Shown here in pieces: positions 118 through 40,407 of a stretch of DNA of 64,000 nucleotides. The translations under genes and the position numbers were made by a program. The notes beneath the pieces are model-generated. The model searched no databases. It worked only from the letters and a program-made list of their open reading frames with translations, and had not been told where the DNA came from. This DNA is from Amphiura filiformis. Its lineage: Eukaryota; Echinodermata; Ophiuroidea; Amphilepidida; Amphiuridae. Position 1 is the first letter of the stretch. The number at the start of each line of letters is the position of its first letter. The DNA lies in the NCBI RefSeq assembly GCF_039555335.1, contig NC_092642.1, forward strand, positions 19,021,151 through 19,085,150. The letters run 5' to 3'.

Positions 118-314
118 ATTGGGGATTTTGGCTTGGCATTAGATATATCGTCTATCTCTAGCAGCGACAACAAAGATACTTCAGGAACATGTACGCACAT
201 ACCTCCAGAATTATGGTCTGGGACGATATTAAAACCTACAATGAAAATGGATATCTACGGGTAAGAATATTATGATTATTATTAATATTATTAATGTTAT
301 TATTATTATTATTA

Positions 315-355
<41 letters not shown>

Positions 356-382
356 GTTACTATTATTTTTATTATTATTATT

Positions 383-448
<66 letters not shown>

Positions 449-1311
449 GACCTACCTTGACCTACCTTGACCTAAGCCGTCCACACCATTTTGGGAATGT
501 GTGATGGCTTCTGTTTCAGGATGGCTTGCCAGATCCTCCGATCACGTGATAGACTGGTAGCTTCAGCCAGGGAGCTCAGGTTTCTAGTAGCACAGTCTGC
601 CTTTACACAATCTGTCCATTTCTTGGCTGGTCTTCCACGTGGTCTTTCACCATGGATATTGGAGGTCAGGAGAATGTTTGGGTATCTTGATGGTTGCATC
701 CGATTGACATGGCCAAAGTATTTCAGTCGTTTTGTGGTCACTCTGTCAATTATCGTCTCCTTCAGACCTAGGCTTTCTCTGATGACGGTGTTCCTGATTT
801 TGTCTAGTCTGGTGACACCCATGATTTTCCTGAGGCAGATCATCTCAAAAGTCAGCAGCCTATTTTCGTCTATCTTTTCAGTGTCCATGTTTCTGAGCCA
901 TACATAAGGATGGACAGGACAAGTACTTTGTAGAGTTCGATTTTTGTTGAGCAAGTGATGTCTTTAGCATGCCAGATTTTGTTGAGACTTTGAATCGCCC
1001 CAAGGGCCTTTCCAATTCTGTGTCTGATATCTTCTGAGCATGTTCCCCTCTGAGTAATGGCACCTCCAAGGTATATGAACTTGTATACCTGAAGAAGTTT
1101 CACCCCATTGATGTTGATGTTTAGCTCCTGTGGTTGCTTGCTGATAACTTGTACCTCTGTCTTGGCGATGTTAATCTTCAAGCCGAAATTTGAGCTGTTT
1201 AGGTTCACTTTGTTGGTCAGTGTTTGCAGATCTCTTTCATTTTCGGCTATCAGCACAATATCATCTGCAAAGCGAAGATTATTTATCAGGTGACCTTGTA
1301 TGTTGACGCCA

Positions 1312-1347
<36 letters not shown>

Positions 1348-3575
1348 AGTGTTATTATTATTATTATTGTTATTATTATTATATAGTTTCTCCATTACGA
1401 TGTTCGAGTTCGTCAGTGGAAAAGTTCCATGGCCACATATATCATGTACGTATAAATTTCCATCTGTCTTTGAAAATAGTTGGTTACACTTCGTCTTTTG
1501 TCATAGGTCGTCTGACTCTGTCTTTCTGCAAGTTTGTTTGCGTAATTAGTGTGGCATAAACCTCACTCCATTTTATTTGACTTGGACCCCAGGTCACTTA
1601 AATGCAGTGGATTGGCTGCGGAAGCATTACAAAAATGGGGGAGGGCGACCATATTTTGTGCCTATTTCAGATGGGCACATTTCAATTTCAGACTATTTTA
1701 GCCCAAAAGGAAGGCGCATTTTGGTCGGTAATGGAAAAGTGCGCGCGAAGCGTGAAAATGTTTAAAATTTTATCCTATTCTTGCCCCAAGACGCTGTTTT
1801 TCGGGCAAAAAAGGAAAATGTGCACATTGTTTTGTTTTTGTGGCTTCTATTAGGATTTTAGGGGGCCACCCCTGTAGAAATATATCTCATCCTTGGCAGA
1901 TGTTTTACTTGTTAAAATTGCCAATATATTATGGGCTAAACAATAAGATATGCAATTTGCGAAATCATGCACTGTCGTCGCTAAATATAATTATATCTAC
2001 CCAAATAAGTATGTTAATTATTTATTTTTATTTATTATTTTATCAATTATTACTATCATCATTTTTTTCATCAGGGGCCTTAGCGCATCTCGTCAGCCAA
2101 TGGGTTGTACAGGGCAAACGTCCAGAACTGAAAGAATTACCACCGGAAACACCAGACATTATTATTACTCTGATGGAGATGTGTTGGGCACAAAATCCTG
2201 ACGAGAGGCCGACATTTCAAGGTATTATAATTTGCCCATCAATGTAATTAGTCACTTTCAAAAAATGTCGGGGTTTGAAAATAAAATATAGACGCAGTAA
2301 TGAATTATGTTAGCTAAATCCAAGTACAATTTACTCACAATTTTAAGCTTTCGCCATCTTGTCTGATGGCTTTATCACAGATGGTACGGACCACTGCTTA
2401 TCCGTCGAAACTTGACAGCTGAGGTATCCTTATTTCCCGAAGTGATGCTAGCAGTGCAGGCAGTGGGTCATACACGTGATCCAGTTTACCCATGAAGAGG
2501 AAACAGACAGCAAAATTCCATTCCTGGATACGCTGATCATAAACGTAAACAAAGCGGATCAATAAAGAGCTACAAAGCTCCTGGTGTATAGGAAGAAAAC
2601 TGAAACTGATTGGTATTTGAACTTCAATTCCCAGCATCCCCTGTATCAGAAATTCAGCACAGTAAGAACATTAATGGACAGGAAGGATTGCATAGTTACT
2701 GAGGAAGAGGATAAACAGGTAGAGGATCAGCGAATCAGAAATTCTCAATTTCTGAGCCTCACAAGTCGTCAATAACAGACCACATTGCACGATGAATGTA
2801 TTTACTTTCTAGGTGACGGTATGACCCAATGCACTGCTATCATCAATTCTGGGAAATAAGGATACTTCAACTGTCAAGTTTCGCGGGATAAGCAGTGGGC
2901 CGTTCCATCTGTGATCAAGCCATCAGACAAGATGGCGAAAGCTAAAAATGTGAGTACATTTATATTTGATTTAGCTATAAACATAATTCATTACTGCATC
3001 AATTTATCAATCCCACAAATGCATATCGTCGGCAACACATTGTAAGAGATATTGTGGTCAATCTTTTTTACCAATCTATCTTAATTGAATATGTCAAATT
3101 CAATATAACCAGTGGCGTAGGGGTTGTGGCGCCCAGGGCTAAAGAAACATAATGGTGCCCCTCTACCAATTCATGAAACAATTGCGCGGAGCGTGCGAAA
3201 ATTTGCACAAAAAGGGCAATTTTGGTTACAACGAAGTCGATCTTCAATTGATCTTTCAAATGATTTTGTGCTAATATGCGAGCGTAGGGGGCGAACATTT
3301 TGACTTTCATCGCTTGGAGGGGCGCAGAATTGATGCTGAATTACATAATTAGGCGCCCCTAAGGGTGGCGCCCAGGACACGTGCCCCCTTGCCCCCACCC
3401 CACCCAGTCGCTATGCCACTGAGTATAACGTAAGTGTATTAATATCATTCTTCCTTTTCTATGCATTTCTTTAGAAATTCAAGAACTTCTGACTGCTTTG
3501 TATGAGAGCGATTACAGAAAGGAGATACGCAAGGCGGATATCGTAATTAATCGCAATATGATCGAAGCTGGAAAA
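118..3575 (+). CDS. Kinase C-lobe exons (TKL/RIPK-like)
   Basis: Four exons (118-260, 1387-1445, 2075-2221, 3475-3575). Exon 1 has IGDFG (Mg-binding DFG) and, after an activation loop rich in Ser, the P+1 element HIPPELW in place of APE, then MDIYG. Exon 2 supplies FEFVSGKVPWPH (subdomain IX-X). Exon 3 has GKRPELKELP and the subdomain XI signature CWAQNPDERPTF. Exon 4 finishes the last helix. Phases match at each junction (2, 1, 1, 0). The pattern fits tyrosine-kinase-like kinases such as RIPK. The catalytic HRD loop, the Lys and the Gly loop lie upstream of the window, so activity cannot be judged; the DFG Asp is intact. Confidence 0.85.
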
Positions 3576-6500
3576 GTAAGAATTGTTATTTAATAGGAAG
3601 AGCTGCTTTTGTAGAATTTTCTTTTTATCTAATACCGGATTTAATACTTGCATTATCTGTGAATTTCTCAATAATTGCAGGGAATACAATCGGTGGTCGA
3701 CATTATATATAGATCGAAATGAGCTTACCAAATATTGCCCTTTTCAGCTATTTTCCCCACGCAGAACATGCAGAAGGATCTCTTTAAAACACTTATAAAA
3801 GGGCTCAAAGTATTTGTCACCAACATTTGATGCAAGGTGGGGTGGTTCCAGGTTAGCAGCTACGTATAGCATATGCTTGGAAAGAATAAGAGAATCTCAA
3901 ATATCTTGATTTGCCTTGCTTCCTCTCACTTGGAGGAGAGAAAAGTGTGACTTTCTATATTTCTTAGGTGGAAAAGGGGCCGAATGCCGGGGCAAAATGA
4001 TCTTATCTTCACATCAGTTTATACAGTAGATTTTAACAGTCTTTCACTTATTATTATTAATTTGCTTATGGCTGAGTTGGATTTAAAATAATATAAATAA
4101 ATAAATTATTGCATTATATGCATCTTCAGTATTTTAACTCCAGTGTCTTTGTTTTTTGCAACACTCTATCTGTTTCCTGTACTGTTTAATATTAATCATC
4201 CATAATTCCAGAATGACTCACAGGATGGATTCAGCAGTGAAGAGAGTGGCCTCGGAACTTCCACCAGCATCAAAGTAGGTACTTCGCAATCATCAGACTG
4301 GTCATCCATGTCATCAGGCTCAAGTGCTGGAGCTGCGAAATCCACGGTATGTTCTTTCTTGCAAGAGCCATAATATAGTCCGACGCAAAACACATGCAAA
4401 GCGTCGTATTGTTAAAAAGGTATAGTCGCATTAATCCCGAGTAAAATAAGATCCCATTTGAGTTCTAGCCACATTCGACCAGGAATATAAATGTGAAATT
4501 TGACCCGAATAGTGTCAAATTGAATTGAGTCAAATTTATGATTTCTGGTCAAATTTGACCAGAAATCTGATGATATTTTACTAGTTAAATTTGACAAGAT
4601 CTTTTAAAGCGTATTCCCTTCATGTTTTTCTTCTGTCACAAGTCAAACATGTGACGACAGAACTCCAATTTACACATGTAGCGGGTGATTTTGTTTTTGT
4701 TGGACGGGCTTTAGGGAAGGGGTATGAACGTTTGGACAGTATTTATTGTGGGACATTAGAGCACATCAAACATATCGAATTGCATTCTGAATGCGAAGAA
4801 TGTCATTCTGATATCAAATAATTTTGATTTTTTAAATTCGCAATGTAATACACATTTTATGGCAAATCATTAAAAATTGATATTTTTGATATTAAACAGT
4901 ACTCGAAGTAAACTTTAAGTAAACTTTATAAATCTGATGATTTATACTTCACGTGTATGTAGTTGGGGTGAAAAGCCGATCAATCGAAAATTTTGACCTT
5001 TCGTATTGAAGATATGGATTTTTTTTCCCAAAACACCAAAAAAAAATAGGTCTTTTTGGAAAAAAATCCATATCTTCAATATGAAAGGTCAACATTTTCA
5101 ATTGATCGTCGGCTTTTCCTCCCAGCTACATACACTTTAAGAATATATCATTAGATTTATACAATTTACTTCGAGGACTGTTATATCAAACATTTGAAAA
5201 ATATCAAATTTTTATAATTTGTCATAAAATTTGTATTATATCGTGATTTTCAAAAATGAAAATTATTTGATATCAGAAAGACATGCTTCGTATTCAAAAT
5301 GCAATTCGATACGTCTGAGGTGCTCTCATGTTCCATAAAAAATACTGTCGAAACGCTCAAAACGCTCATTCCAGATCCCTTAAACAATTTTAGGTCAGTA
5401 TGAGAGCAATACACAAAATAAATCCAAACAGAAAGAGAGTGTAAAAGGCATGTCTGGCGAAACAACGTGGCTACATATTGACTACGGGTTTCTTTCTTTT
5501 TCTAGTTATTTGGACGAGATATAAAAATAACATATTATTATGATGTGTCAAATATTGAAAAGTTAATTGAATGAACAATAATATACTAAAGGTTTTGAAT
5601 TGAATAGAACGGAAGGTCAATTATCTACCTAATGTTACATTCATTTCATTTTTACATCAGCTTAGCAGCTCTGGAAGCAATACAAAATCTGCCTCGTCTG
5701 AAGTTCATCAACATGAAAAGTTGTCATCCAAATACGACTCACGGGTATGAAATCGTCGTTTACTTCATTACGTTAGCCTCGGAGAATGCCGCTTTAATTG
5801 ATTAAAATCGGAGAATATCCCTTTAAAAAAGTTGGAGAATGCCTTTTAATTAAAACAACCGAGAATACCTCTTTAATAAATATAATCGGAGAATGCCCTT
5901 TTAAATAATCAGAGAAGGCCAAACATTAATCAGTGCGGTTGACATGTTTTTTCCCAGGAAAATGTATGAAGCTAATTTTAATAAGTTACTGACGCTTGGT
6001 TTTAATTGTTATGCAGGTTACAGGCCAAATAGTGTCTAACTACAGGACAAGGGACACCAGAAGTGAGTACAAACAACTCTTCAACTTAGTTTAAGCTAAA
6101 GTTTATATCATTAAGGGCTGGGGTATGAACGTTTAGACAGTATTTTTTGAGGGACATGAAAGCACATCAGACATATCGAATTGCATTCTGAATACGAAGA
6201 AAGTCCTTCCGATATCAAATAATCTTGATTTTTTGAAATTCACGATATAATACACATTTTATGGCAAATGATTAAAAATTGATATTTTTGATATTTTTAA
6301 AACAGTCCTCGATGTAAACTTTATAAATCTAATGATATGCACTTAAAGTATATGTTGCTGTGATGAAAAGCCGACGATCAATTGAAAATTTTGACCTTTT
6401 GTATTGAAGATTATGAATTTTTTCCCCAAAACACCAAAATAATTTAGGTCTTTTTGGGAAATACGAAAGGTCCAAATTTTTCAATTGATCGTCGGCTTTT

Positions 6501-9500
6501 CACGGCCCAGTTACATACGCATTAAGTACACATATCATAAGATTTATAAAGTTTACTTCGAGGACTGTTAAATATCAAACATTTTAAAAAATATCAAATT
6601 TTAATAATTTATCACAAAAATTTATCAAATTTCGCGAATTTCCAAAAAAATCTAAATTATTTGATATCAGAAGGACATTCCTCGTATTTAGAATGCAATT
6701 CGATAAGTCTGGTGTACACTCAGGCCCCACAAAAATACGTGGCAACGTCTCTAAACGTTAATATCAGATCCCTTAATTTACACATTTTTTTTTTCATCCG
6801 GGACGAAAAGAGATTTGAAGGGTAAAAATGCATGTAAAATGCAAATAAAAACTATTAACAAATTCTGCTAATTTTAGATGATCATATGCTAAATCTTTCG
6901 TTTTTCTTTATGTATTTTGCACAGATAGTTTAAAGAAGCACGTAATGATCTCGTACCAATGGGATGCCCAAGAACGAATGCTAAAGTTACGCGATGCATT
7001 ACTCAGTGCTGGGTTTGATGTTTGGATGGACGTCGACAGGATGGGTGTGTATAAATAGGCTAACATCAACACACGCCCTCTATACATACAGCAGAACACG
7101 GACGAACGGACACCAATATCGACACTCACGTACCCCCCCAACTTACTACCATCACAGTATTACGACCCCTGACATGGTAGAAATATCCGAGAGAAATATA
7201 ATACTGTGCACAAAAGACATGCGTACACTTAAAACAAAAGCCATTTCTTAAAGACACTGAAACAAAATAAGAAAATAAGGTGGTCAATAAATAGAGAATT
7301 TTGGTCTGTGTATTTTGATACCTTATTTCTCATAGCAATTTGAATAAAAAAAGAAGCATGCATAATTGCATATATGTGACCATCCACCACAAACCGGCGG
7401 TAAAGTCGGCAAATTGTATTATGAGTTAAAGTGTAAAATGTGCATAAAGGTTCTATTCATAGGTACCTCAAGTTGATACTACATGTATCTCATTTTGCTA
7501 GTGGCAGTGAAGCACCTTTTACACCAATCATTAATCCTATTGTTGAAGATAAGGTTCTACCTATGTATAGACTTCTTAAATAGCTCTAGTCTTTGTTTGC
7601 ATTGGCTAAATCTTCAAGTGATGGGATACAAAGCATTGTATTTTGTTTAGGTATGTATTAACAATGAGAGGACATTCCTCCCATCTATTTGACCCAACAA
7701 GAAAACCTCATTTGAACCCATCTCGCTCAGTCAGTGTTGCCGATACCTTACATGCAGTGAAAGAAGCACAAAGGCGTGGCGAATCAACAATTGACCTCCC
7801 AGTCCGAGCCAAATGTCCTACGTCAGCTAAGTTTAGCCAACGGAGACACTTCATTGATAACCCATCCAATATTTATTGATGTATGTTGCTCTAACAACTC
7901 GTAAAGAAAATATACTTTTAAACTATATCCAAAACCTGGATGAGGTATCAAAGTACGCAGAACTAAATTCTCCATCTGTCGTCCACTTTGTTTTGTAATT
8001 TAGTTTATAAATTGATTTTGTTTAAGTGTACGGATAATTTTTGTGCGCAGTATACATAGTATACCCTGGTGGGGCACAGCGTTGTAAACATGGTAAATGT
8101 TGAGATATCATGATAATTATGCAAACCCCTCCCCACACATTTATTATAACACATAATAATTGCAAACTACAACTTTGTAACGAAAAACTGACTAATTTTC
8201 ATTTCTGAACCTGAAATAAATAATATATTTCTCATAATTTTTTGCCAGAGGGAAACATGAATGAAAGGATGGCAGAAGCGGTGGAAGGTGCAGCAGCAAT
8301 TCTTGTCTGCTTTTCAAAGAAGTACCAGGAGAGTAGAAACGCAATGAAAGGTATTTTGGATCAAAAAAGTTCGTTAATTATTGAAACGGTTGGTTCGTGC
8401 AGAGACACTTGGTTCTGTTGGCGTATGCAGACTCATGCAATAATGTTCAAGCCCGGTTAAATGCTTGTAAGGTTGCTGGAGAGAAAGAAAGAAACAAGAT
8501 TGAGGGTCAAGAACAATAAAAATGAACGCCATAATCCAAACTGCCGTAGTTTTTAAATTGCTTCTGGAAAAATAATTAAAATTAAGTTTTTGGTCGTACA
8601 TAACTCTTACAGAACTCGGGTATGCTAACCATCGAGGAATAAAACTAATTCCTCTGCGGTACGAGGACTACAACCCTTCAGGGTCTCTTGGTTTCATCAT
8701 CAACACGCTCCTGTACTATGACATAAAGACAGACGAGGATATGATGAAAAATATGCCGAATATCATAAAGGTACTGAGGAAGTGTGTTGATCCCAGACAT
8801 AGTGCTTCTCAAGGTGGGTACGGTAAGCAAAAGGTTGTGGTGATCCGGAAATAAACAAAGAATGCATTCAATTGAATAAAGTTTATTTTCAAATTTTTTT
8901 GTCTTCATTTTTACTTACTTATTTGGGCTCAAAATAGAAAAGGAACATATTGTAATAGTGTAACCACATGATTTTGTGACATTTATTTTGTGATCATCCT
9001 GTTTATTTCAGGGAAAGATCCAATACCAACTCCCCAGCACAGAAGTGAGAGGACAACAGCTGTTCAAGATGATGAGGTATTATTATACACACCGTCGTTT
9101 TATCTTTTCAGTTTCTGTTTCCGTATCCGTATCCGTTTTCGTAAGTCATTGTTATTCTGAAGTGGTAGCCTCCCAGGTGTGACCAATCTTTTATTCTAGC
9201 CTGTTGTTAGTTACTAATAATTTGAAGCACGTGAATTTTAGTTTTCGTTTTGGTAAGTTATGTTAACTTTTGACATAAAACCTTGAGATGAGAGGTTAGG
9301 TGCTAATCTGATATTGGTCACCAGTTTAGATCATTAGTCAACTCGACTGCTGATGTAGATGAACTTTCTGAAGCTTATGAAAAGACTGTCATTGATGTTT
9401 TAGACCAGCATGCTCCATTGGTTACGAGAACCCGGAATGCACGCATCAGGCAGCCTTGGTACAACTCCGGGGGGGGGGCACTTCAATTTGAAATGGATAT

Positions 9501-12500
9501 AGGTGTAGGGGTCATTGGGTGAGAGCATGATTTTTGGCATTTGGTGAAAGCAAAATGTAAAAAATATGGGGTCATTGGGTGAGAACATGACCTTTTTTTT
9601 AAATGGAATCTTTGGGTAAGACCAAAACAGCGCCACAAAAACCTCGAAAATCGAATTTCTAGTTCTAAATGGCTTCAAATTTCTTTATTTTTTCAAAATA
9701 AGTAACAAAATCAGTGATAAATGAAAGTTGCTGTTCAAATTGAACTTATAAGGGTCTTTGGGTGACAGATCAAATGGAAAAATAGGGGGTCTTCGGGTGA
9801 CAGAGCGCGGAGCGAGCATGAGTTCGTAAAAAAATATGGGGTCTTTGGGTGACAGCGATGCTGAAAAAGGGGGTCTTAACAGCCCTACATACGCGTCACC
9901 TCCAAAGTTGGAGTGCCCCCCCCGGGGTACAACTCAGAAATACATCATGCTCGTAGACTCCGCAGAAAGCATGAGAAGAAGTGGAGACAAACAAGACTTG
10001 AAGTCCATCACCAACTTTACATTGAACATAACAAAACTGTTAACAGCCTAATTGAAAAGGCTAAACAAAGTCATTATGCTATGAAGTTTCAGGGTGCTAA
10101 TGACACAAAGACCATGTATAAGATCGTAAATAGTTTGTTAAATAGTAAATGTAAGATATTACCTGTATATGAGTCAGCTGAGGATATGAGTAATGAGTTC
10201 GCTACATATTTCCAAAACAAAGTAGCTAAAATATATGAAGATCTTGAACAAGAAGTATCTTGCACTGGTACAGTAAGGGTGAACACTGACATGTATGACC
10301 ATGATGTTTCTAATATAATGTGAACTCTCTTTTTATGATCATGTTACAGAAGATGATGTTAGAGATCTTGTACAAGGTAGTGCAACAAAAAGTTGCTTGT
10401 TAGATCCTATTCCTACCTGGTTACTGAAAGAAAACATGTCTGTGTTTTTGCCTGTAATAACTTGCATCATAAATACATCCATTTCCTCAGGTGTATTTCC
10501 CAGCTCACTGAAACATGCCGTCATAAACCCCCTTATCAAAAAGCAGTCTTTGAACCAGAGTGAACTGAAAAGCTACCGACCGGTTGCAAACATACCTTTC
10601 CTCTCAAAGTTGATAGAGAAACATGTTGTCAACAACATCAACAACCACATGTTGAAACATCATCTTGGTGAAGAACTGCAATCTGCCTATATGCGTGGCC
10701 ATAGCACCGAAACGGCACTGTTGAAAGTGAAGGATGAGATTATGGGACATGTGTACAACCAGAAAGGAAATTTCCTTGTCTTACTCGATCTCAGTGCGGC
10801 TTTCGATACGGTGAACCACAACCTTCTGCTGAGTAGAATGTCGCATGAGATCGGGGTGACTGGGATTGCTCTTGACTGGTTGAGGTCCTATTTTACTGGT
10901 AGAACAACAACTGTTGTGATTGATGGTGTCTACTCAATGGCAAAGACCATGGACTATGGACTACCTCAGGGCTCAATTTTGGGCCCCGAGGTTTCACAGT
11001 GTATACAATTCCAATAGGCAGGATCATCAAAAACCACTCGCTTTCATACCACATGTACGCGGACGATATACAGATTTTCTGTAGTTTTGAGCCATCTAAC
11101 CCATCATCAATTGAAACCGCTTTGTCATCAATAACATCTTGTATCAAAGAAATCGACAAGCTTTCGACAAGAGTTTTTCTCTCACCGCACCTGCACTCTG
11201 GAACTCACTTCCATCTGAACTCCGTACTGCTGCTTCTCTGCCAAGTTTCAAGAAAGGCCTCAAAACCTTCCCGTTCCCACAATAATCTGGTGGCTTTGTT
11301 TCAGTTTTGCTGTTTTATTTTGCCTTTCAAATATTTTGTGTTCCATCTTGGCGCCGTGGTCTTTATGAAATGGCGCCCTATAAATGCTTTGTATGTAATG
11401 TAATGTAATGTAGACAAAAGAAGAGTGTAAATTTTACGGTTCTAAATTCGCGCAAAATTGCAATTGTGTTTGGTGTATATGCACTTACGCCTAGGCGTGA
11501 GTGGCTCGTAAAAATAGTCTTGTATTGAAATATATACTAACCATGTTGCCAAGTTATAAGCAAAAGTCTTTCATATTGGCGATGAAACGAGTGTCTGAAA
11601 TAGCCCAATATCTCCCAATGAGGCGCGTACAAGTGGCGATTTGGTAATCATGTTTTATATTGAAATGCAATACAAAAGAATTGCGTTGGAGCAAAGATAA
11701 TTTATTCTATTCATTCGTAACAATGGCAAGCTAATCTGATAATTGGTTGGGCCTATATGCAAGACTCGGGTTTATTTTAAATGTTTATTTTTGCAGAGCT
11801 TATTTTCAGTCATGAATCATACTGATAAATTTCGCAAGGGAGGTGGAAGGAGGGAGGGAAGGGATACTTTATACTGAACAAGTGAGAGTGGGAGGAGGTG
11901 AGGAAGAAAGAGAGGAGAGGGAGAGACGGACATACTAGAAAGAGAAGAACTCGAGAGGAGAGAGAAGGGACCGGAGAGAGAGCGGGGAGATTGATCATTC
12001 GGAGGGCTAGGGGAGGAGGAAGCAAAATAGAGAGACAGACATTGATACGAGGGAAGGGCGACACTGCGGCCCTGCACAGGTGCATTGGGGTGCGACAGGC
12101 TCATAAGCGGACCTTTTGTGATTTAAGGGCTTATTTTCAACGTTTTTACATTTTTCATTCGGATTGGCATTTTGTCATAATAATGTGAATCAATTTGACA
12201 GTGTCAAAGACAAGAGGGCGTTAGACCATTAAAAACACCGGTGTTCCATAATCTTGTCTCTCCAGCCTTTATTGACACAGGCATTCACCAGTGTTGAAAT
12301 AAGCTGAGTGGTACTTCAAAGTTAACAATGAAGTCAGATTACAGTAAACTTACTTAATCCCTTGCGTTTTCGTATCTGAACAATAGACTTACGGAAACTG
12401 AAAAGATAAAACGACCCTGTGAATGTCGTACAAATTTGCTTAATGGTGCATGCTTGTTAATGTTAGTGACTTTCTTAGAAATTACGCAGCGCCCTCCCCG

Positions 12501-15500
12501 TAAAGCCCTATAGTTCAATCAAGGATCGTATAGTTAAAATGTGAAATATTCAAAATGCGAAACATTCAAAATGCGAAACATTCAAAATGCGAAACATTCA
12601 AAATGCGAAACATTCAAAATGTGAAACATTCAAAATGTGAAACATTCAAAATGTGAAACATTGATATTCATGATAAAGCAGTAATCATTCGCCTAATGCA
12701 CTCTCAGAACATTGGATAAAAACGCCCAGCAATGGTTAAGATTCTTGAAGTTGGGCAAAATACAGTTAAATACATGGATGGTCAAACCTATCAATATGGT
12801 ATTTACACGGATTGGGTCAATTTACCAAAATTACCAATGTTGGTTAAAAGTTCATGGTCACATAGTGTTCCTTTGCGAACTGTGATTGGTAATTTGTGTT
12901 GGGCAGAAAAATATGCAAATGCATTGCAGACAACAAGATGGCCGATGAGTGCATGGGTTGCTGCAAAGCTTGTGGATTGGGGTCTTCAAGATCTATTCGA
13001 GACCTTTGAAAGTAGGAAATTATATTATAAAGTATATCATTTTATCGGGTATAACACGTAATTTAAGTGTATGCGAATTGAACAATAGCTGAATCATTAC
13101 GTAACAACTTGGCTGACAAATTGTTCCAATTGTTGCAATTGCAAATTACTTCTCTATGTTTCTTGTAACCGTTGTGGTCTGATCCCCTTGTAGGCTTTTT
13201 ATTTAGTGTCGAAATATTAACAATGTGTACAGTGGATTCCGTTACTATTTTGCATGTCTATCTGAAACCTTTAAAAATACAAAACAAACAAACAAAAAAC
13301 AACAATAACAAAATATATCCAACCAAAATATTAAGTTCACAATATAAATTTCAAAAAAAGGGAACAAAAACATTTCATAGCAAGCTTTTATTAACGCTTC
13401 TTCACATAAGTTCAACGCCCTGCCGACTGAGCTAATGGGTCAGATAGAAAAAAACGATACCGATTACCAGTGTGGTTCGACTACATTTATAAATACGTTT
13501 TTACAAAATAATACGCACGTGACCCATCGGCACCAAGACCAGCAAGCGTGACCATATACTCATGCATTGACCACTATACAGAAACGGATTGGAACTCTGT
13601 AGATAAATATCATCAAGTTTGAGTATTAATTGAATAGCAAAATTATTACACATGGGGGTTCCGAATTTGTAATATGTTATCAAAAACAACATTTTGAAAG
13701 TATCTGACGACGGAAACAAAAAAATTCAACGACGGAAACGTTTACAATATAACAACAAAGTTAAACAAAACAGACAATTTTGCTGCACCGTAGTCTCATG
13801 TTGTTCCGTCTTTGCATTCAAATGTATAGGAAGACCACCCGCTATGTAGATGGTCACTTCGAGACTTATTGTCTACAAGCTGTTATGGCAGCGCGGAGGT
13901 GGTCACGTGCGTATTTATAAACACGTATTTATAAATATAGTCGGAGCATACTGATTACTTTGGCATGTTTGAGAGCAGGCTGACTCCTAATTACCTCCAG
14001 GATAACAAGATAACCTACTGTATATACGTGTTAGAAGATACTGAATTTTCACTCTATGGGCACACTTATGGGTGAAAAATGTCTCATACGCATTTGTGAT
14101 TTGATCACTGAGACTGCATTTTTACTTGGGAGGGCATGACAGGTCTGGAAATGAAATAATAAGAGCGCCATTTTCATCTCCATCACCTTTCCCAGAAAAA
14201 TCACAGGTTTGATTTAATTTGATTTAATTATTATTATATCTTTATTTCGCAGAAAGTCGACTCAAATGTCATAAGCAGAAGGAATAAGTCTGAACAGAGT
14301 CTGTATCAGAATGGTAAGTCTGTTGATCCGCTTAAGTTCACGATGTTATATATTAATTTAAGGGGGTACAACACCCCTGGCCAATTTTGAGCTTATTTTT
14401 GTATTTTTCGCAAAAATTAAAATATGTATATTAAAGGGGCAAGGACTACAACTACAGTACTGAAAATTAAGCAACTCAAAGCAAGTAGTTATTGATTTAT
14501 TGATCAAATATTGGTTTCCCTCATTTTTGACTGTAACTCCACAACTGTTGTCTGTGCTGAAATAAAATTTCCAGTGCAGTAGTTGTAGTCCTTGCCCTAT
14601 AATACACATATCTTACTTGTCCCCAATGCGCTATAATTTTTGAGAAAAATGCAAATATGGGCACAAATTGTGCAGGGGTGTAGTACCCCTTTAACACATT
14701 AAAATGACAAAGTGCAATTGACAAATGACGATATCATTAGCGCCACGTATGTAATCTATCCGACGTCATAATGCATAGCCTTTGTGGTGTTTTAAAAAGG
14801 TTAGAGAGGTAACACAAACAACCATGTTTAAATGTTGGGTTATATAAAGGGTAAAAACGTTTTAATAATATTTATAATTTGCTGCAAAACATTACAATAT
14901 TATAATGTATATTTAAAGTGGAACCAACACATCCAGTAGTATAACATTTATCCAGGGACATTAGGACAAATTATTGGCATTCACTAGATAGACAGGGATT
15001 TTATTGCACCATATCCCACAATCATGACAAGTGCAGGTGGTGTTTATATTATGCAGAACAAGTGAAAACTTATCACCTTGTAAAACGTACATAACTCATT
15101 AACAACAATAAATCAAGCAAGTGTTCAAATTATCAACAATGAAAATGAAAAATGTCATGTTTAAACATGTGATAAATAATTATTAAATACACAGTGGAGA
15201 TCGGGAAACCTCGACCAGAACGTAGCACCCGTTCACGCCCTCCAGCGCCACCACCAGAACCAGTGAGGTTACCTCCAGTCCCACCGCCCAAGCAAAAATC
15301 AGCGCAAAGTGAAGAATTATATGAGAACTTAGGTGAAACAGAAGGCACTAGAGTCCCTCCAGAGCCATTGACAAGGTCTCCGCAATCTATGCCAAACCCT
15401 CAACAACAACCGAATAACCAACCTGGGGTCTTTCATGGTGGCGCTCGACCAAGACAACTAATTTCGCCAATTTCGCCAGGTACCATGTTTGTTTATTATC

Positions 15501-18500
15501 ATATGAAAATGAAGAGTTCAGATGATGAAAGCGATATACGCCATCGCTGACACGTGTTCTTCATAATTGTTATTATATTATTGTACAGACTTGACATTTA
15601 GTATGAAATATTTTTCGCAAAATTCAACGACTGGTCTTGATGGAGCCTGCATAAACCGCACGGACTAAATATTAATTGCGGTGTGTCGGGAGATGGTGTA
15701 AAATAATTGTTTGATAGAAAATGTGCTTTTCATGAGTTTACATTAATGGTGCTCATAATGTAGTAAAATTAACTAAAGTGACGGATTTAGGGAGGCTGAA
15801 TTTGATCTTTTTGGGGGACACAATTTCGGACTTTATGCAACATTGTCTGGTTATTATCAAATTTATTTGGGTTTGAGGTGATATTTCGTAAACTTCGTCA
15901 GCAATTGGCATGGGTCAAAGCTGAAATATACTTTCAATATACCAATTTTTAGAAAATGGGAGGAGCTTAAAATATGGCTCTTAAACGTGATACCTACTCA
16001 GAAAGTTTGAAGCCCCCTGGGGTCAAATGTTATAAACTTATGGTTGCGCGGATTCCTGGTTGTCAAATGAACTCACGCTGTTTCTTTGTGTACAGTAAGT
16101 TTATAACATTTGGCCCCAGGGGGTCATTCAAACTTTCTGAGTGCGTACCACATTTATAAGACATATTTTTAAAGATCCTCCCGCTTTCAAAACTGGTAGA
16201 TTACAAGTGCATTTCAGTTCTGACGAAAACTTATTGGTATTAAGATTCAGTAAATATCACCTCAAACCTCAATACATTTGTTAATATCACAATAATCTTG
16301 CTAAAATTCGGAAATTTTACTCCCACAAAACTCAAATTCAGTCTCCTTAAATCCGCCATTTTAAGATAATTAACTACATTATCAGCGACATAATGTAAAC
16401 TCATGGAAAGCACATTTTCTATCGAACAATTATTTTAAACCATCTCCCGACACACTCCAATTAATATTTAGCCCGTCCGGTTTATGCAGACCCCTTCCAG
16501 ACCAGTCTTGGAATGTTGCGAAAAAATATTCCATACTAAATGTCAAGTCTGTAATTAATTATTGATAATTTAATACTCTGACGAATATCATAAGAAACGA
16601 TTTCTCAAATAATAAATGAATAGCTCAGCATTCATTAAAATCGAAAAAGAATTGACCTTTTCGGTAAATCCCATAACCCTTTGCGAGTACACCTGAGAAC
16701 TCGTCATTTTACGTCACGCCGACTTGCAATGCGCAGTAACGATGTTCGATAAACGATGTGCGCATCGGCGCAGAACGGCGTGACGCAAAATGACGAGTTC
16801 TTAGGTGTACTCGCAAAGGGTTGCGGGATTTACCGAAAAGGTCAATCAAGTATACAAAATAATTATGTAGACATAAGTTACGGATTTACAACTTGGCATA
16901 CACTAATACAGGAATGGTGAATAAATAATATCTGACAAATGACATTGTCTTGTTGTTCCATCGCAAAATGCAGTTCATTTTCTACATGTGACCTTTGTTT
17001 GGGACACCCTTTATGTATACCTTTTATTTGAACCCCTTCTTTGTATCATTTATCTAAGGGCAACGGTGTTTTTCTTCTTTCCCCAGGTTACACTTACACT
17101 CCACAACAAGTACCACAGCCCAAGCCAGGAGCAATTGATCAGCTGCGAGGTATTCAGTCTGGAGGTGTGGAAAATATGCTGCGGAGAGATTTGCAAAACT
17201 TTCTGTCACCTGGATCACAGACAGTCCATCATACAGCACCGACGATTCCTCAAGATACCATGGATACTGGGTTCCAACCACAAGCCGCTACTGTGTTTCC
17301 AGTAACTCCAGGTATTGATATAAATTCAGTATGTGCTCCAAAATCAATTAAAAGGAAATTAAAAGGAAAAGAATAATTGAGTCGACCCTGATAACCAACT
17401 GAGGTGCAAATGAAGGCGTATATCTATAAATTCTGATGTACCATATCCCTTTTCATGGTTAAATCGTGAATGGGAAGTACATGTAATTATTTTGTATAAT
17501 GTGCATTCATTGTTTTATTTATTCTTTTCTTGCCGCAGGTCAAGGTTATATCCCGCCAGCCACAGTAACGTGTACATCAACTTCAGGTATTGATATAAAT
17601 ACACTCTGATAGACTTCTACATTTAGAAAAAAATGAAAAGAACACAAAGAAACCATTTTTTGAATCTGATACTTCCATCGTTAGAATGAGATGCAAGAAA
17701 ACAGGCCATTATGATACTTTAGAATATCTTACTCTCCTTTTGTATTTTTGCAGTCCCGCAGATGGTTCTTCAGAAAGAGATTCAACTTCAACACAATATC
17801 AAAGCCGTGCATTGTTTCAGTAGGTTTATTGCTATTTGCACCGAAAACTACGTCGCTGTCTATGACATGGAAAGAATCGGAGTTACCCAGCCAGAATACA
17901 CTTTGGCGTCACCTGATTGGAATAGCTTTCCTGGAGACGTCACCGCGACCGATGTGAGCATCTTAGCTGTAGTCTTCGGTGATCCCAATATATATGTATT
18001 TGATAAGATGCACAGCAGTCGCGAGAAAACAAAGGTCAAGATATCCAAGCAGGCTGACCCGCGTGCCATACAGGCTGGTCACGGGAAAGTCATTGTTGTC
18101 ACAAATGGCTTGAAACTCCGAATCTTCTTGCTGCCCGATTTCAAGCTAAAGAGTATGTATTCAATTAGTAGCCCCCCTTCCACCATTCACTTAAACCAAT
18201 GCTCGTTACTGGTTGCTACTACCAATATCATCCTGAGGTATCCCATTGATAACATGGGAAAGAAGATCACTATCTATACGAGCGACCTAGGGCTAGGCAA
18301 TTGTAAAGGAGCCATGCTTCGTATTCAAAGTCATGACCCTAAAATTTTGGATCCCTTTTATGTTCTTTCTGAGGCTCAGTTCCGTGGTACCATACATTGT
18401 TTTGCATGGAATCGGAAAAAGAAACAGTTCGTCAATGCCGGTTGCATTGCAAAAAACATCCCCGCTATGATTTGGAAAGGCATGCATATTTCAGAAACTG

Positions 18501-18580
18501 GGCAGGTAGTAGTAGCATGTGAGCCTAACAGGCTGCAGATTTACAGGCCCTACCAGTATCTTCTGCAAGTAAGTGCTTAG
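118..18580 (+). CDS. Kinase-TIR-proline-rich-propeller protein, 5' partial
   Basis: Sixteen exons join in one frame with GT-AG borders: 118-260, 1387-1445, 2075-2221, 3475-3575, 4212-4346, 5661-5744, 6017-6062, 6925-7044, 8249-8350, 8613-8813, 9012-9076, 14253-14313, 15195-15479, 17087-17311, 17539-17586 and 17754-18580, about 882 residues to the stop at 18578. Domains in order: kinase C-lobe (DFG to subdomain XI), Ser-rich linker, TIR, Pro-rich linker, propeller-like C-terminus. The kinase N-lobe must lie left of the window. The TKL kinase and TIR calls rest on clear motifs; the propeller is a fold guess. From the families, the protein should act in cytosolic innate or cell-death signalling, with TIR as NADase or scaffold; its role is inferred. 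No frameshift was seen, although many transposons sit in its introns. An unrecognised exon or alternative splicing could change details. I know no standard gene name for this architecture. Confidence 0.85.
262..449. repeat. (ATT)n microsatellite
   Basis: Nearly pure TTA/ATT trinucleotide tract in the kinase intron, followed at 450-475 by two or more GACCTACCTT units. It abuts the 3' end of the minus-strand retroelement and may be its simple-repeat tail. Confidence 0.95.
460..1312 (-). mobile_element. 5'-truncated RTE-like non-LTR retrotransposon
   Basis: The minus strand encodes the end of a reverse transcriptase: FADDIVLIAENERDLQ (FADD active site near 1256-1285), YKFIYLGGAITQRG, MYGSETWTLKR, LRKIMGVTRLDKIRN, KRLKYFGHVNRM and GERPRGRPAKKWTDCVK, the usual tail of RTE-type ORFs. 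The frame shifts near 870-950. It is bounded on both sides by (ATT)n. Confidence 0.85.
1313..1382. repeat. (ATT)n microsatellite
   Basis: Second ATT tract at the truncated 5' end of the retroelement, ending four bases before the acceptor of kinase exon 1387-1445. Confidence 0.9.
2341..2949 (+). mobile_element. Penelope-like RT fragment between inverted repeats
   Basis: Plus-strand reading gives FTHEEETDSKIPFLDTLI, a stop, then LLVYRKKTETDWYLNFNSQH, TVRTLMDRKD and VTEEEDKQ, the YRKxTxTDxYLxF-HP block typical of Penelope-like RTs. About 100-bp inverted repeats flank it (2341-2440 and 2851-2949, sharing GATGGCGAAAG and AAACTTGACAG), like Penelope pseudo-LTRs. It lies in the kinase intron 2222-3474. 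Confidence 0.75.
3110..3421. mobile_element. hAT-like MITE
   Basis: Terminal inverted repeats CAGTGGCGTAG / CTATGCCACTG with flanking 8-base near duplication AATATAAC (3102-3109) and AGTATAAC (3422-3429). The 8-bp target duplication and CAGTGGCG ends are hAT signatures. No transposase. Confidence 0.8.
4212..6062 (+). CDS. Ser-rich linker exons between kinase and TIR
   Basis: Exons 4212-4346, 5661-5744 and 6017-6062 give about 88 residues with many Ser, Gly and Thr (for example SSDWSSMSSGSSAG). There is no fold signature. In RIPK proteins such Ser-rich intermediate segments link the kinase to interaction domains and are often phosphorylated; that role is inferred here. All junctions keep frame. 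The introns on each side hold two large foldback elements of one family. Confidence 0.7.
4541..4566. repeat. Perfect 26-bp palindrome
   Basis: ATTTCTGGTCAAA and its exact reverse complement meet without spacer. Further GTCAAATTTGAC-like motifs lie within 4497-4600. Intronic; function unknown. Confidence 0.9.
4714..5379. mobile_element. TTAA foldback MITE, copy A
   Basis: Long hairpin of about 666 bp with arms meeting near 5040 (AAAACACCAAAA / TTTTTGG). Outer ends GGGAAGGGG..CCAGATCCC. Right flank TTAA at 5380; left flank TTTA. Same family as 6115-6772 and 54647-55305. Confidence 0.85.
5765..5925. repeat. Imperfect GAGAATGCC tandem repeat
   Basis: Five degenerate units of about 30 bp with core TCGGAGAATGCC followed by a TTTAAT stretch, just after exon 5661-5744. 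Confidence 0.7.
6115..6772. mobile_element. TTAA foldback MITE, copy B
   Basis: Same family as 4714-5379, with intact TTAA on both flanks (6111-6114 and 6773-6776) and ends GGGCTGGGG / CAGATCCC. A TTAA target suggests piggyBac-type mobilisation. Non-coding. Confidence 0.85.
6925..8813 (+). CDS. TIR domain exons
   Basis: Exons 6925-7044, 8249-8350 and 8613-8813 encode a full TIR domain of about 135 residues. Box 1 is KKHVMISYQWDAQE; the BB-loop region is FDVWMDVDRM followed by NMNERMAEAVEGA; the strand C/helix C part is ILVCFSKKYQES then NAMKELGYA; strand D is IKLIPLRYEDY; the end is GFIINTLLYYDI. This is the subtype with MISYQWD start common in invertebrate multidomain TIR proteins, not the Toll-receptor subtype. 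The Glu of MKEL, about residue 313 of the visible protein, aligns with the catalytic Glu of NADase TIRs (SARM1 and plant TIRs). Its codon is split between 8350 and 8613. Confidence 0.9.
7380..7660. repeat. Dispersed repeat, shared with 35700-36235
   Basis: Shares long blocks such as CTCATTTTGCTAGTGGCAGT and AATAGCTCTAGTCTTTGTTT with 35700-35960. The edge GACCATCCACCACAAACC matches, inverted, the edge at about 36195-36232. Confidence 0.75.
7643..7879 (+). CDS. Unrecognised 78-codon ORF in TIR intron
   Basis: Open frame with natural composition (SVSVADTLHAVKEAQRRGES, ending FIDNPSNIY). Its first codons overlap the dispersed repeat ending near 7660. I do not recognise a family. It could be a captured gene fragment, an alternative exon, or chance. 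Flanking exons splice past it in frame. Confidence 0.2.
   Translation: MFRYVLTMRGHSSHLFDPTRKPHLNPSRSVSVADTLHAVKEAQRRGESTIDLPVRAKCPTSAKFSQRRHFIDNPSNIY
9012..17586 (+). CDS. Proline-rich adaptor-like linker exons
   Basis: Exons 9012-9076, 14253-14313, 15195-15479, 17087-17311 and 17539-17586 give about 228 residues without a globular domain. Exon 15195-15479 is dense in PxxP motifs (PPAPPPEP, LPPVPPPKQ), typical SH3 or WW ligands, and carries ELYENL, a YxxL-type site that could bind an SH2 domain once phosphorylated. Exon 17087-17311 is Gln/Pro rich. The intron 9077-14252 is about 5.2 kb and holds a LINE with a nested element. Adaptor binding is inferred from motifs only. Confidence 0.7.
9325..11413 (+). 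mobile_element. CR1/L2-like LINE, degraded
   Basis: Plus-strand fragments of a Jockey-group ORF2: DVLDQHAPLVTRTRNARIRQ, RRLRRKHEKKWRQTRL, LDPIPTWLLKE, SYRPVANIPFLSKLIEK, LDLSAAFDTVNH, GLPQGSILGP, YADDIQ, then after an internal deletion APALWNSLPSELRTAASLPS. The 3' end is ATAAATGCTTTG plus (TGTAA)3. Frameshifts at about 10322 and 11000. It sits in intron 9077-14252. Confidence 0.9.
9468..9925. mobile_element. 458-bp insertion inside the LINE
   Basis: Element with inverted G/C-run ends (CGGGGGGGGGGCACTTCAA / TTGGAGTGCCCCCCCCGGGG), flanked by direct copies of GGTACAACTC at 9458-9467 and 9926-9935. Inside are repeats of GGGGTCATTGGGTGA/GGGTCTTTGGGTGA. The host LINE frame (PWYN|SEIHHARR) is continuous across the insert. 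Confidence 0.85.
11414..12534. other. Intronic, no gene; polypurine tract inside
   Basis: Within intron 9077-14252. A purine-rich GGGAGG/GAGAGA tract spans about 11835-12060 and accounts for open frames on both strands. No exon or RNA gene seen. Confidence 0.6.
12535..12662. repeat. 16-bp tandem repeat, 8 copies
   Basis: Unit CAAAATGCGAAACATT with a C/T variant (GCGAAA early, GTGAAA late); exact 16-bp register from 12551 to 12662, the first unit degenerate. Confidence 0.95.
12732..13061 (+). CDS. Unrecognised 109-codon ORF in intron
   Basis: ATG-started open frame right after the 16-bp repeats. The stretch WVAAKLVDWGLQDLFETFES loosely resembles a SAM-domain helix pair (V..L...GL..Y...F), but the rest has no match I know. 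No splice link to the host gene is needed. Could be a retrocopy, transposon remnant or chance. Confidence 0.25.
   Translation: MVKILEVGQNTVKYMDGQTYQYGIYTDWVNLPKLPMLVKSSWSHSVPLRTVIGNLCWAEKYANALQTTRWPMSAWVAAKLVDWGLQDLFETFESRKLYYKVYHFIGYNT
13062..13477. other. Intronic, nothing recognised
   Basis: AT-rich intron sequence between the 109-codon ORF and the next MITE. No exon, RNA gene or repeat structure seen. Confidence 0.5.
13478..13943. mobile_element. Foldback MITE
   Basis: Imperfect inverted ends of about 45 bp: CGACTACATTTATAAATACG..CGCACGTGACC at the left and its reverse complement at the right. No coding potential. Confidence 0.7.
14362..14690. mobile_element. TTAA MITE with AGGGGTACTACACCCCTG-type ends
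   Basis: Flanked by TTAA at 14358-14361 and 14691-14694. Ends GGGGGTACAACACCCCTG and CAGGGGTGTAGTACCCCT are inverted; an inner pair AAGGACTACAACTAC / GTTGTAGTCCTTGCCC also folds. Begins 45 bases after exon 14253-14313. Confidence 0.85.
15584..16553. mobile_element. 970-bp foldback element
   Basis: Arms of about 450 bp: TACAGACTTGACATTTAGTA at the left is answered by TACTAAATGTCAAGTCTGTA at the right. The centre lies near 16045-16095 between CCCCCTGGGGTCAAATGTTA and its complement. Ends 530 bases before exon 17087. A related fragment is at 21018-21090. Confidence 0.85.
16651..16846. mobile_element. Short foldback MITE
   Basis: Inverted arms of about 72 bp: ATTGACCTTTTCGGTAAATC .. AACTCGTCATTTTACGTCACG, mirrored at 16776-16846, with a 54-bp loop. 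Target bases not resolved. Confidence 0.85.
17754..18580 (+). CDS. Propeller-like C-terminal exon
   Basis: One long exon of 275 residues ends at TAG 18578-18580. The sequence alternates short hydrophobic strands with turns (FIAICTENYVAVYD, LAVVFGDPNIYVFD, VIVVTNGLKLRIFLL, LLVATTNIILRY, VVVACEPNRLQIYRPY), a repeat of about 40-50 residues that fits five or six blades of a WD40/NHL-type beta-propeller. WD dipeptides are absent, so no Pfam family is assigned. A strong donor CAA|GTAAGT begins at 18569, three codons before the stop, so a longer C-terminus by splicing is possible; no downstream exon was recognised. Confidence 0.65.
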
Positions 18581-19290: not shown

Positions 19291-19750
19291 AATATTTTAA
19301 GGATATTTGTCTAACATGGAGCTATTTGTAAACTACACGCGCCAAGTGGAAGTGCGCTTTATGCTATCATGTCATAAGTCAACTAACATAAATTGGAAAC
19401 ATTTGGAGGGACATTCCTTTCAAAATCAATAAAACGAGTAGCGGTGTTTGACTATCAGTATCATCGAAAAAAAAAAGGAAAAAGTGGTTTTAGCACAGAA
19501 TATTTAGAAGCCAATTTTGGAGGAAACTGAGCCGGAAGGGAGGAGGACGTGACAGGACTGTTAACTTTTCGGAATTGCTTGGAGTTAAATATTGTCAAAC
19601 AAGGGCATATCGGGATGGATATGTTTGGCAACTAAAATAATATTGGTCACCACGACTTTTTTTTTTCTAGGGCGCTCTAGAATCTAAAAGATGGGTTTGG
19701 TCGAATACCTTATAGTCTGGTGAATTCAGAAGACTTTGAATAGTAAACCA

Positions 19751-19842
19751 GCCAAAGTTTGTCATCTAAGCCAAAGCTTGTCATCTAAGCCAAAGTTTGT
19801 CATCTAAGCCAAAGCTTGTCATCTAAGCCAAAGCTTGTCATC
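19751..19842. repeat. 19-bp tandem repeat, about 5 copies
   Basis: Unit GCCAAAGCTTGTCATCTAA with a TTTG/CTTG variant. Confidence 0.95.
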
Positions 19843-39188: not shown

Positions 39189-39854
39189 GTAAACTACCCT
39201 TACGAAAATGCAAGCAATGAAAAATGTGTGCGGAAGCATGCAGCACGCGTGCGGCAGTGTGCAGCACACATGCAGATGTGTGCAGCATGCAAGCAAGGCC
39301 TGCTGGTAGCGTGTTCATGTGTGCGAACCAGCTGAGTGCATGCAGGCACCGCACACAAATATCCACCGCGCACACAATTTGCTTGCAGAACCTGCGTGCA
39401 GACTACCAATCTGTACGCAAATTACGTGCAGACTACACTTGTGTGCGGACTGTAGGACTGCATGCAAATTGCACGCATCTTGCATGCAGCACGCATATTG
39501 CTGCATGCATGCAGGATTTCCAGATCACAAAGTTAGAATGCTGCACGCAGACAGGGTTTCCAGAAGCAGTAAGGTAAAATGCTGCATGCATGCAGGATTT
39601 TCAATGACTAATTCACCTTTACACAACTGACATCAAGTCACAATTTGGCAATGATCTAGAAGTGAAAATATTTAAATGTTTACAATGAATAAATAAGTTA
39701 GCCTTCGGACCAAAATTTTCTAAGTATTTAACCTTCAGACCAAGATTTTTTGGCAGACCAAGAGGGGAGGGGGGGGGGCAAGCAATTTTTGGCGGGCTAA
39801 AAGGGGGGGGGGTAAGCATTTTGGTTATGTTTTGTGGGGGGCAAGCAAATTCTT

Positions 39855-40225
39855 GTTTCGATAGTTGGCATTTCAACTTTGGGCCAATGTTGGAATGCCA
39901 TTCCTGTTTTGATAGTTGGCATTGAAACACTAGCTGGCCCAATGTTGGAATGCCATTCCTGTTTCGATAGTTGGCATTGCAACATTAGGCCGATGTTGGA
40001 ATGTCATTCCTGTTTCGAAAGTCAATAGTAGGCATTGCATCATTGGCCCAATGTTGGAATGCCATTCCTGTTTCGATAGTTGGCATTGCAACATTAGGCC
40101 GATGTTGGAATGTCATTCCTGTTTCGAAAGTCAATAGTAGGCATTGCATCATTGGCCCAATGTTGGAATGCCATTTCTTTTCGATAGTTGGCATTGCAAC
40201 ATTGGTCCGATGTTGGTATGCCATT
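39855..40225. repeat. Tandem repeat with 109-bp higher-order period
   Basis: Seven units of 50-57 bp (TTGGAATGCCATTCCTGTTT + CGATAGTTGGCATTGCAACA). Alternating unit types give a dimer with exact offset 109 (TTGGCATTGC at 39971 and 40080). Confidence 0.9.
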
Positions 40226-40407
40226 CATGAATCAACAGTTAATTGGCACTGCAAAAAATCAAAACAAAATTCAACATTTTTATAGTGAATGTTATCAATA
40301 TATATTCACAGTAAATTTGATCAATATTCATAAAATGATGCACTTTGGCCGGTTTAGTCATCAAAATATTGCTTATATTAACTTAAAACACTTAATCAAA
40401 TGTGTAT

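Follow-up and report, generated by a model that had tools for sequence, protein, structure and literature searches.

Here we describe a gene model that joins a protein kinase and a TIR domain on one chain, found in a 64,000-nucleotide stretch of Amphiura filiformis DNA (contig NC_092642.1, positions 19,021,151 to 19,085,150; hereafter the window). Located on the + strand at 118..18580, the model comprises 16 exons, with borders set to the base, whose joined frame of 2649 nt encodes 882 residues and one terminal stop. With roughly even confidence, we read it as a single gene encoding, in order, a RIPK-like TKL kinase, a Ser-rich linker, a TIR_2 domain, a Pro/Gln-rich linker with two YxN motifs, and a propeller-like domain, in which the TIR domain would act mainly as a self-assembly switch. 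Given the continuous frame, the intron phases, the ranks of the splice sites, and the domain matches, kinase and TIR very probably belong to one gene; the join from the TIR domain to the C-terminus is probable, although its intron is 5.2 kb long and starts at a weak donor, and one transcript from the whole model is likely.

All 15 introns have GT-AG borders and the 882 codons of the spliced model contain no internal stop. The original prediction, made from the letters of this DNA, of 16 exons in one open frame with matching phases was borne out, and the borders it gave at 3575/4212, 6062/6925, and 17586/17754 agree with the base-level exon model. Exon 1 opens at the kinase DFG motif, 117 bases from the left edge of the window, so the start codon, the kinase N-lobe, the HRD motif, and any N-terminal domains lie outside it, and the part within the window, which ends with a stop codon at 18580, encodes the C-terminal portion of a longer protein. 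A tblastn search of the window (E 1, low complexity masked) revealed no second copy of the gene; all 15 rows fell at model exons, some extending into an intron, and exon 5 gave no row.

The kinase domain is carried by exons 1 to 4, as placed by Pfam on the spliced model. Exon 1 (118..260), the first inside the window, encodes the DFG motif, activation segment, and PPE, with the Pfam kinase match beginning at residue 1; exon 2 (1387..1445) and exon 3 (2075..2221), the latter with CWAQNPDERPTF, encode further parts of the C-lobe; and exon 4 (3475..3575) encodes the end of the domain and the residues after it. In the joined protein, PF07714 matched residues 1-122 (E 1.1e-15) and PF00069 matched with E 5.8e-10, and the CW..NP..RPTF motif reported earlier is present. 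When compared with solved structures, the kinase piece matched 789 distinct sequences, the best 60 of which were ranked, on the C-lobe only and with no tree. Within these 60, RIPK1 was nearest (best E 4.4e-15), followed by RIPK2 (1.8e-13), RIPK3, RIPK4, and then TAK1, while ROS and Src ranked lower; the top 28 consisted of RIPK1 (13), RIPK2 (12), and RIPK3 (3) sequences, and RIPK4 came next. RIPKs are therefore the nearest solved relatives of the C-lobe, and the domain appears to be a RIPK-like TKL kinase.

The TIR domain follows on exon 8 (6925..7044, 120 nt, N-terminal part), exon 9 (8249..8350, 102 nt, centre), and exon 10 (8613..8813, 201 nt, C-terminal part), each of phase 1-1 and each assigned through Pfam on the spliced model. 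Pfam placed TIR_2 (PF13676) at residues 245-353 of the joined protein (E 4e-20), in agreement with the TIR domain originally proposed; under a loose limit, TIR_2 reached E 4.7e-21 versus E 0.05, below cut-off, for the classical TIR profile. A 135-residue query against solved structures listed 11 matches, in which 5 plectin sequences (E 0.13-0.22) stood above 6 of SARM1 (E 0.39-0.5). With the query trimmed to 86 residues, 10 of the 11 solved sequences listed were TIR proteins and 1 was unrelated. Seven of the ten were SARM1 (E 0.18-0.73), while the others (7xoz, 7qqk, 5teb) comprise an ADP-ribosyl cyclase/cyclic ADP-ribose hydrolase deposit, a TIR_SAVED fusion, and plant RPP1; TLR, IL-1R, and MyD88 sequences were absent from the 11. 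Weak likeness to bacterial defence TIRs was also found, namely to Thoeris ThcB4 of NCBIfam (E 1.7e-7; 30.4 bits versus a cut-off of 220) and to bSEFIR (7.3e-7) and ThsB (1.2e-6) of PADLOC. We read the domain as SARM1/bacterial-type rather than TLR/MyD88-type, a reading for which the profile evidence is good and the pairwise evidence weak. Exons 8-11 all begin in phase 1, so that the TIR module, flanked by phase-1 introns, can be inserted or skipped in frame, which makes exon shuffling a natural origin: by this route, a gene for kinase and propeller could have acquired the TIR domain, and an isoform that lacks it is predicted from the same module.

The linkers on either side of the TIR domain differ in composition. 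Exon 5 (4212..4346, 135 nt) and exon 6 (5661..5744, 84 nt), both of phase 0-0, encode the Ser-rich linker, and exon 7 (6017..6062) encodes its continuation immediately before the TIR domain. Serine makes up 25.5% of residues 131-240, and the 28 serines are written with six serine codons, unlike a simple DNA repeat. The post-TIR linker (residues 386-612, 227 residues, 16.7% proline) begins on exon 11 (9012..9076) and continues through exon 12 (14253..14313), which holds LYQNV at Tyr419, the proline-rich exon 13 (15195..15479), which holds LYENL at Tyr464 and PxxP motifs, the Pro/Gln-rich exon 14 (17087..17311), and exon 15 (17539..17586), the last two of phase 1-1. The Grb2 SH2 domain prefers pYxN, and we take LYQNV and LYENL to be YxN motifs of the Grb2 type; at least two YxN[VILM] motifs were reached in 1 of 5000 shuffles of the 227-residue linker, with the motif picked after inspection. 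The Pro-rich linker gave no match in Pfam. A 22-base stretch recurs with 95% identity at the donors of exons 14 and 15 (17304-17325 and 17579-17600) and may be a remnant of exon duplication.

Exon 16 (17754..18580) encodes, ahead of the stop codon, a 274-residue C-terminal domain in which a simple propensity profile revealed repeated strand-like segments, so the strand-rich C-terminus originally described is present. Under a loose limit, Pfam returned Mcl1_mid (E 7e-4, 19.5 bits versus a cut-off of 31.5), DUF6476 (E 0.033), the second propeller of WDR35 (0.15), and the second propeller of IFT140 (0.23), none of them reaching its cut-off; three of the four are propeller families. Among ten control sequences (1 reversed, 9 shuffled), two had one match each (E ~0.09) and none matched a propeller. 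A comparison of the domain with solved structures gave two matches, both at chance level (E 1.4 and 1.6). A beta-propeller is a plausible reading, and our best guess.

The continuity of the gene was evaluated by ranking candidate exons of 30-320 nt that have an open frame and whose acceptor and donor score no less than 3 and 2, respectively, with the reverse strand as control and with weight matrices not fitted to this organism. In the gap between kinase and TIR domain (3576-6924), exons 7, 6, and 5 rank 1, 3, and 4 among 30 forward candidates (scores 16.3, 13.3, and 13.1), versus 13 candidates on the reverse strand, the best scoring 13.8. In 14314-17753, exons 14 (19.6) and 15 (18.4) rank 2 and 3 of 53, behind a shorter version of exon 14 in first place, and the 28 reverse-strand candidates reach at best 15.6; exon 13 falls outside the candidate set because its acceptor scores 0.0. 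The sites of exon 12 (9.3 + 9.7) score higher than any candidate in intron 11, which has 108 forward candidates left out of the model (best 17.0) and 47 on the reverse strand (best 15.2). Weak sites in the model, that acceptor of exon 13 included, are the exon 2 acceptor (1.8), the exon 3 donor (2.9), and the exon 11 donor (2.7). An orphan open reading frame of 113 residues in intron 11 (12720-13058, + strand) was considered as a missed exon and left out of the model; it had no match in Pfam (E 0.1) or PDB (E 1).

The same exons might instead belong to two or three adjoining genes, with the boundary either near 3600, between a kinase gene and a TIR gene, or near 9100, between a kinase-TIR gene and a propeller gene. 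Reading through the donor of exon 4 does meet a stop after 5 codons, with an AATAAA at 4096, but stops follow all 15 donors when each is read through, so that such stops favour neither a single gene nor separate ones. A lone in-frame Met in exon 5 (residue 183) could start a TIR protein; exons 6 and 7 have none. At the second possible boundary, the donor of exon 11 and the acceptor of exon 13 are weak and a LINE remnant occupies the 5.2 kb intron between exons 11 and 12, whereas both sites of exon 12 are strong. With linker exons near the top of the ranking and the frame kept, we consider separate genes unlikely. A decayed or chimeric pseudogene, or a misassembly, is highly improbable: the window does contain mobile-element remnants and a run of N near 29 kb, but the open frame, the intact GT-AG borders, and the strong domain matches all stand against such readings.

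The main alternative keeps the gene single but makes its TIR domain an active enzyme that hydrolyses or cyclises NAD+, in the manner of SARM1 or bacterial TIRs, once the kinase or the propeller turns it on, so that the protein would be a self-contained generator of cell death or of a small signal. This is in keeping with the preference for TIR_2 over the classical profile, the SARM1-dominated matches of the trimmed query, and the matches to ThcB4, bSEFIR, and ThsB. Excerpts of a TIR survey (PMC7075850) describe a conserved Ser/Thr at position 63, an aromatic residue at 66, and a Glu at 75, on which NADase activity critically depends in a subclass; Ser301, Tyr304, and Glu313 (882-residue numbering) are spaced, without gaps, as S63, Y/F66, and E75 are, the Glu313 codon being split across the border of exons 9 and 10. 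The solved-structure matches, however, are all weak (E 0.18-1.3), plectin precedes SARM1 with the longer query, and the ThcB4 match lies far under its cut-off. According to the same excerpts, more than 70% of all TIRs retain E75, while NAD degradation is a less common TIR function (PMC7075850), so Glu313 is insufficient to infer NADase activity. The possible NADase of the original prediction accordingly stays possible through its retained glutamate, and we regard an active enzyme as a tentative, less probable option. Less probable still would be a previously undescribed class of animal protein that combines on one chain a RIPK-like kinase, a sensing propeller, and a TIR domain that enzymatically consumes NAD+ and was inserted as a phase 1-1 exon module.

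Returning to a single gene whose TIR domain mainly drives self-assembly, a stimulus sensed by the N-terminus outside the window, or by the putative propeller, would bring TIR domains together; the kinases tethered to them would in turn phosphorylate one another as well as the linkers, whose YxN sites, once modified, would serve as docking points for SH2 adaptors. The putative propeller would serve as sensor or as target platform. One chain would thereby do what MyD88-IRAK or RIPK complexes do via separate adaptors.

Several observations weigh against this explanation. Its anatomy is the stronger part, while the mechanism, TIR assembly included, is something that we infer, and the gene is known here only as a model on genomic sequence. 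Two of the three linker exons between kinase and TIR score just below the best reverse-strand control, and the second join has its weak points at the donor of exon 11 and the acceptor of exon 13. With its N-lobe and HRD motif outside the window, the kinase could be inactive. In the linker, the YxN motif was chosen after inspection and its SH2 role is putative; PxxP enrichment was rejected as evidence, the counts being reached in 577 and 578 of 5000 shuffles. All propeller matches of the C-terminus lie below Pfam cut-offs, and its internal repeat is not significant by self-comparison (score 46 versus 34 +/- 7 in shuffles, reached by 4 of 60). The originally proposed union of kinase and TIR on one chain is upheld by frame, phases, splice ranks, and domains, and the propeller stays a plausible candidate. 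Searches for relatives likewise added no support: 23 pattern-matching stretches for the C-terminus in genome contigs, and 80 in genome contigs and 12 in viral contigs for the TIR domain, yielded none that was confirmed, and tblastn of the TIR domain against plasmids gave no match at E 0.1. Since the collections searched are described as covering bacteria, archaea, viruses, and plasmids, with no animal genomes, these missing relatives say little.

Kinases and TIR domains usually meet via adaptors such as MyD88. SARM1, an ARM-SAM-TIR protein, is the weak nearest solved TIR for the trimmed query and has a glutamate at the E75 spacing; it differs in that its TIR domain comes last, whereas here a kinase is attached, ~500 residues follow the TIR domain, and no ARM or SAM is listed in the 882 residues. 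RIPK1 and RIPK2 provide the nearest solved kinase domains (within the best 60 of 789). RIPK architectures have a death, CARD, or ankyrin domain C-terminal to the kinase; here a TIR domain stands instead, and Pfam lists none of the three in the 882 residues, with the N-terminus outside the window. LRRK/Roco proteins combine a TKL kinase with a C-terminal propeller, which in the present model is putative; LRRK is not in the best 60 of 789 kinase matches, the TIR domain sits between the kinase and the C-terminal domain, and Roc-COR is not visible.

Closer precedents for the kinase-TIR join are in print, and the original view that the protein matches no described family did not hold: kinase and TIR occur together in choanoflagellates (PMC6040629), sea anemones (PMC5094078), and lancelets (PMC11747288), so that such fusion in animals is already precedented in the latter two. 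Excerpts of Richter et al. 2018 (PMC6040629) describe two architectures, Kinase TIRs and Kinase TLRs, as unique to choanoflagellates, and propose that the kinase-TIR proteins may bypass recruited kinases. Kinase TIRs share with our spliced model a protein kinase and a TIR domain in one protein, in the order Pkinase, TIR; a C-terminal propeller goes unmentioned in those excerpts for either architecture, unlike the propeller-like C-terminus found here, where the N-terminus lies outside the window. Novel Gene 3 (NG3) of three sea anemones, as excerpted from van der Burg et al. 2016 (PMC5094078), likewise combines, in an animal protein, Pkinase/Pkinase_Tyr with TIR or TIR_2. It also carries Death, Roc/COR, and SH3 domains, with no propeller reported in the excerpt, while none of these additional domains is listed by Pfam in our 882 residues, again with the N-terminus outside the window. 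The lancelet proteins, RIPK2 homologues with LRR-TIR-Kinase (PMC11747288, in part), also join a RIPK-like kinase to TIR in an invertebrate animal; LRRs are present and TIR is named before the kinase, whereas here it comes after. For amphioxus, 20 of 28 TIR combinations are given as specific to it, and TIR with NB-ARC and WD40 is mentioned (PMC2575513, in part). The order kinase-TIR-propeller with a YxN-bearing proline-rich linker was not found in the open-access literature searched, which does not establish its absence from print.

Repeats and neighbouring features were also recorded, with Pfam applied outside the gene model to 8 chosen open reading frames. Intron 11 contains a LINE-type reverse transcriptase remnant (10319-11014, + strand, wider 9307-11400; RVT_1 E 1.1e-15) with further open reading frames around it, and a second LINE-like remnant, recognised by eye from its translation, lies in intron 1 (~450-1330, - strand). 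Two copies of a ~670 bp MITE-like element with inverted arms (4710-5383 and 6111-6776), the arms being 83-89% complementary within a copy, occupy introns between kinase and TIR. Tandem arrays are found at 12536-12662 (16-base unit x 7.9), 19750-19842 (19-base unit x 4.9), and 39849-40226 (51/109-base unit). Further downstream, an open reading frame at 57391-57564 matches Fibrinogen_C weakly (E 0.0072, under the cut-off), and another gene has two SRCR domains (62024-63055, + strand; E 4.9e-13 and 2.2e-13). Together with the long introns and the LINE remnants, these SRCR domains suggest that the DNA comes from an invertebrate animal.

Few fusions of kinase and TIR have been reported, namely in choanoflagellates, sea anemones, and lancelets, and the gene model is a further variant among them. 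Fusions of this kind, which lack an adaptor, show where evolution dropped it, and with the kinase in cis they offer a way to test whether the TIR domain acts as assembly platform or NAD+ enzyme. Provided that the source is an animal and that no membrane span lies in the N-terminus, the protein would qualify the claim that the Pkinase-TIR architecture is unique to choanoflagellates. Should a kinase, an NAD+-consuming TIR, and a sensing propeller indeed be combined, detection, kinase signalling, and NAD+ signalling would be integrated without adaptors.

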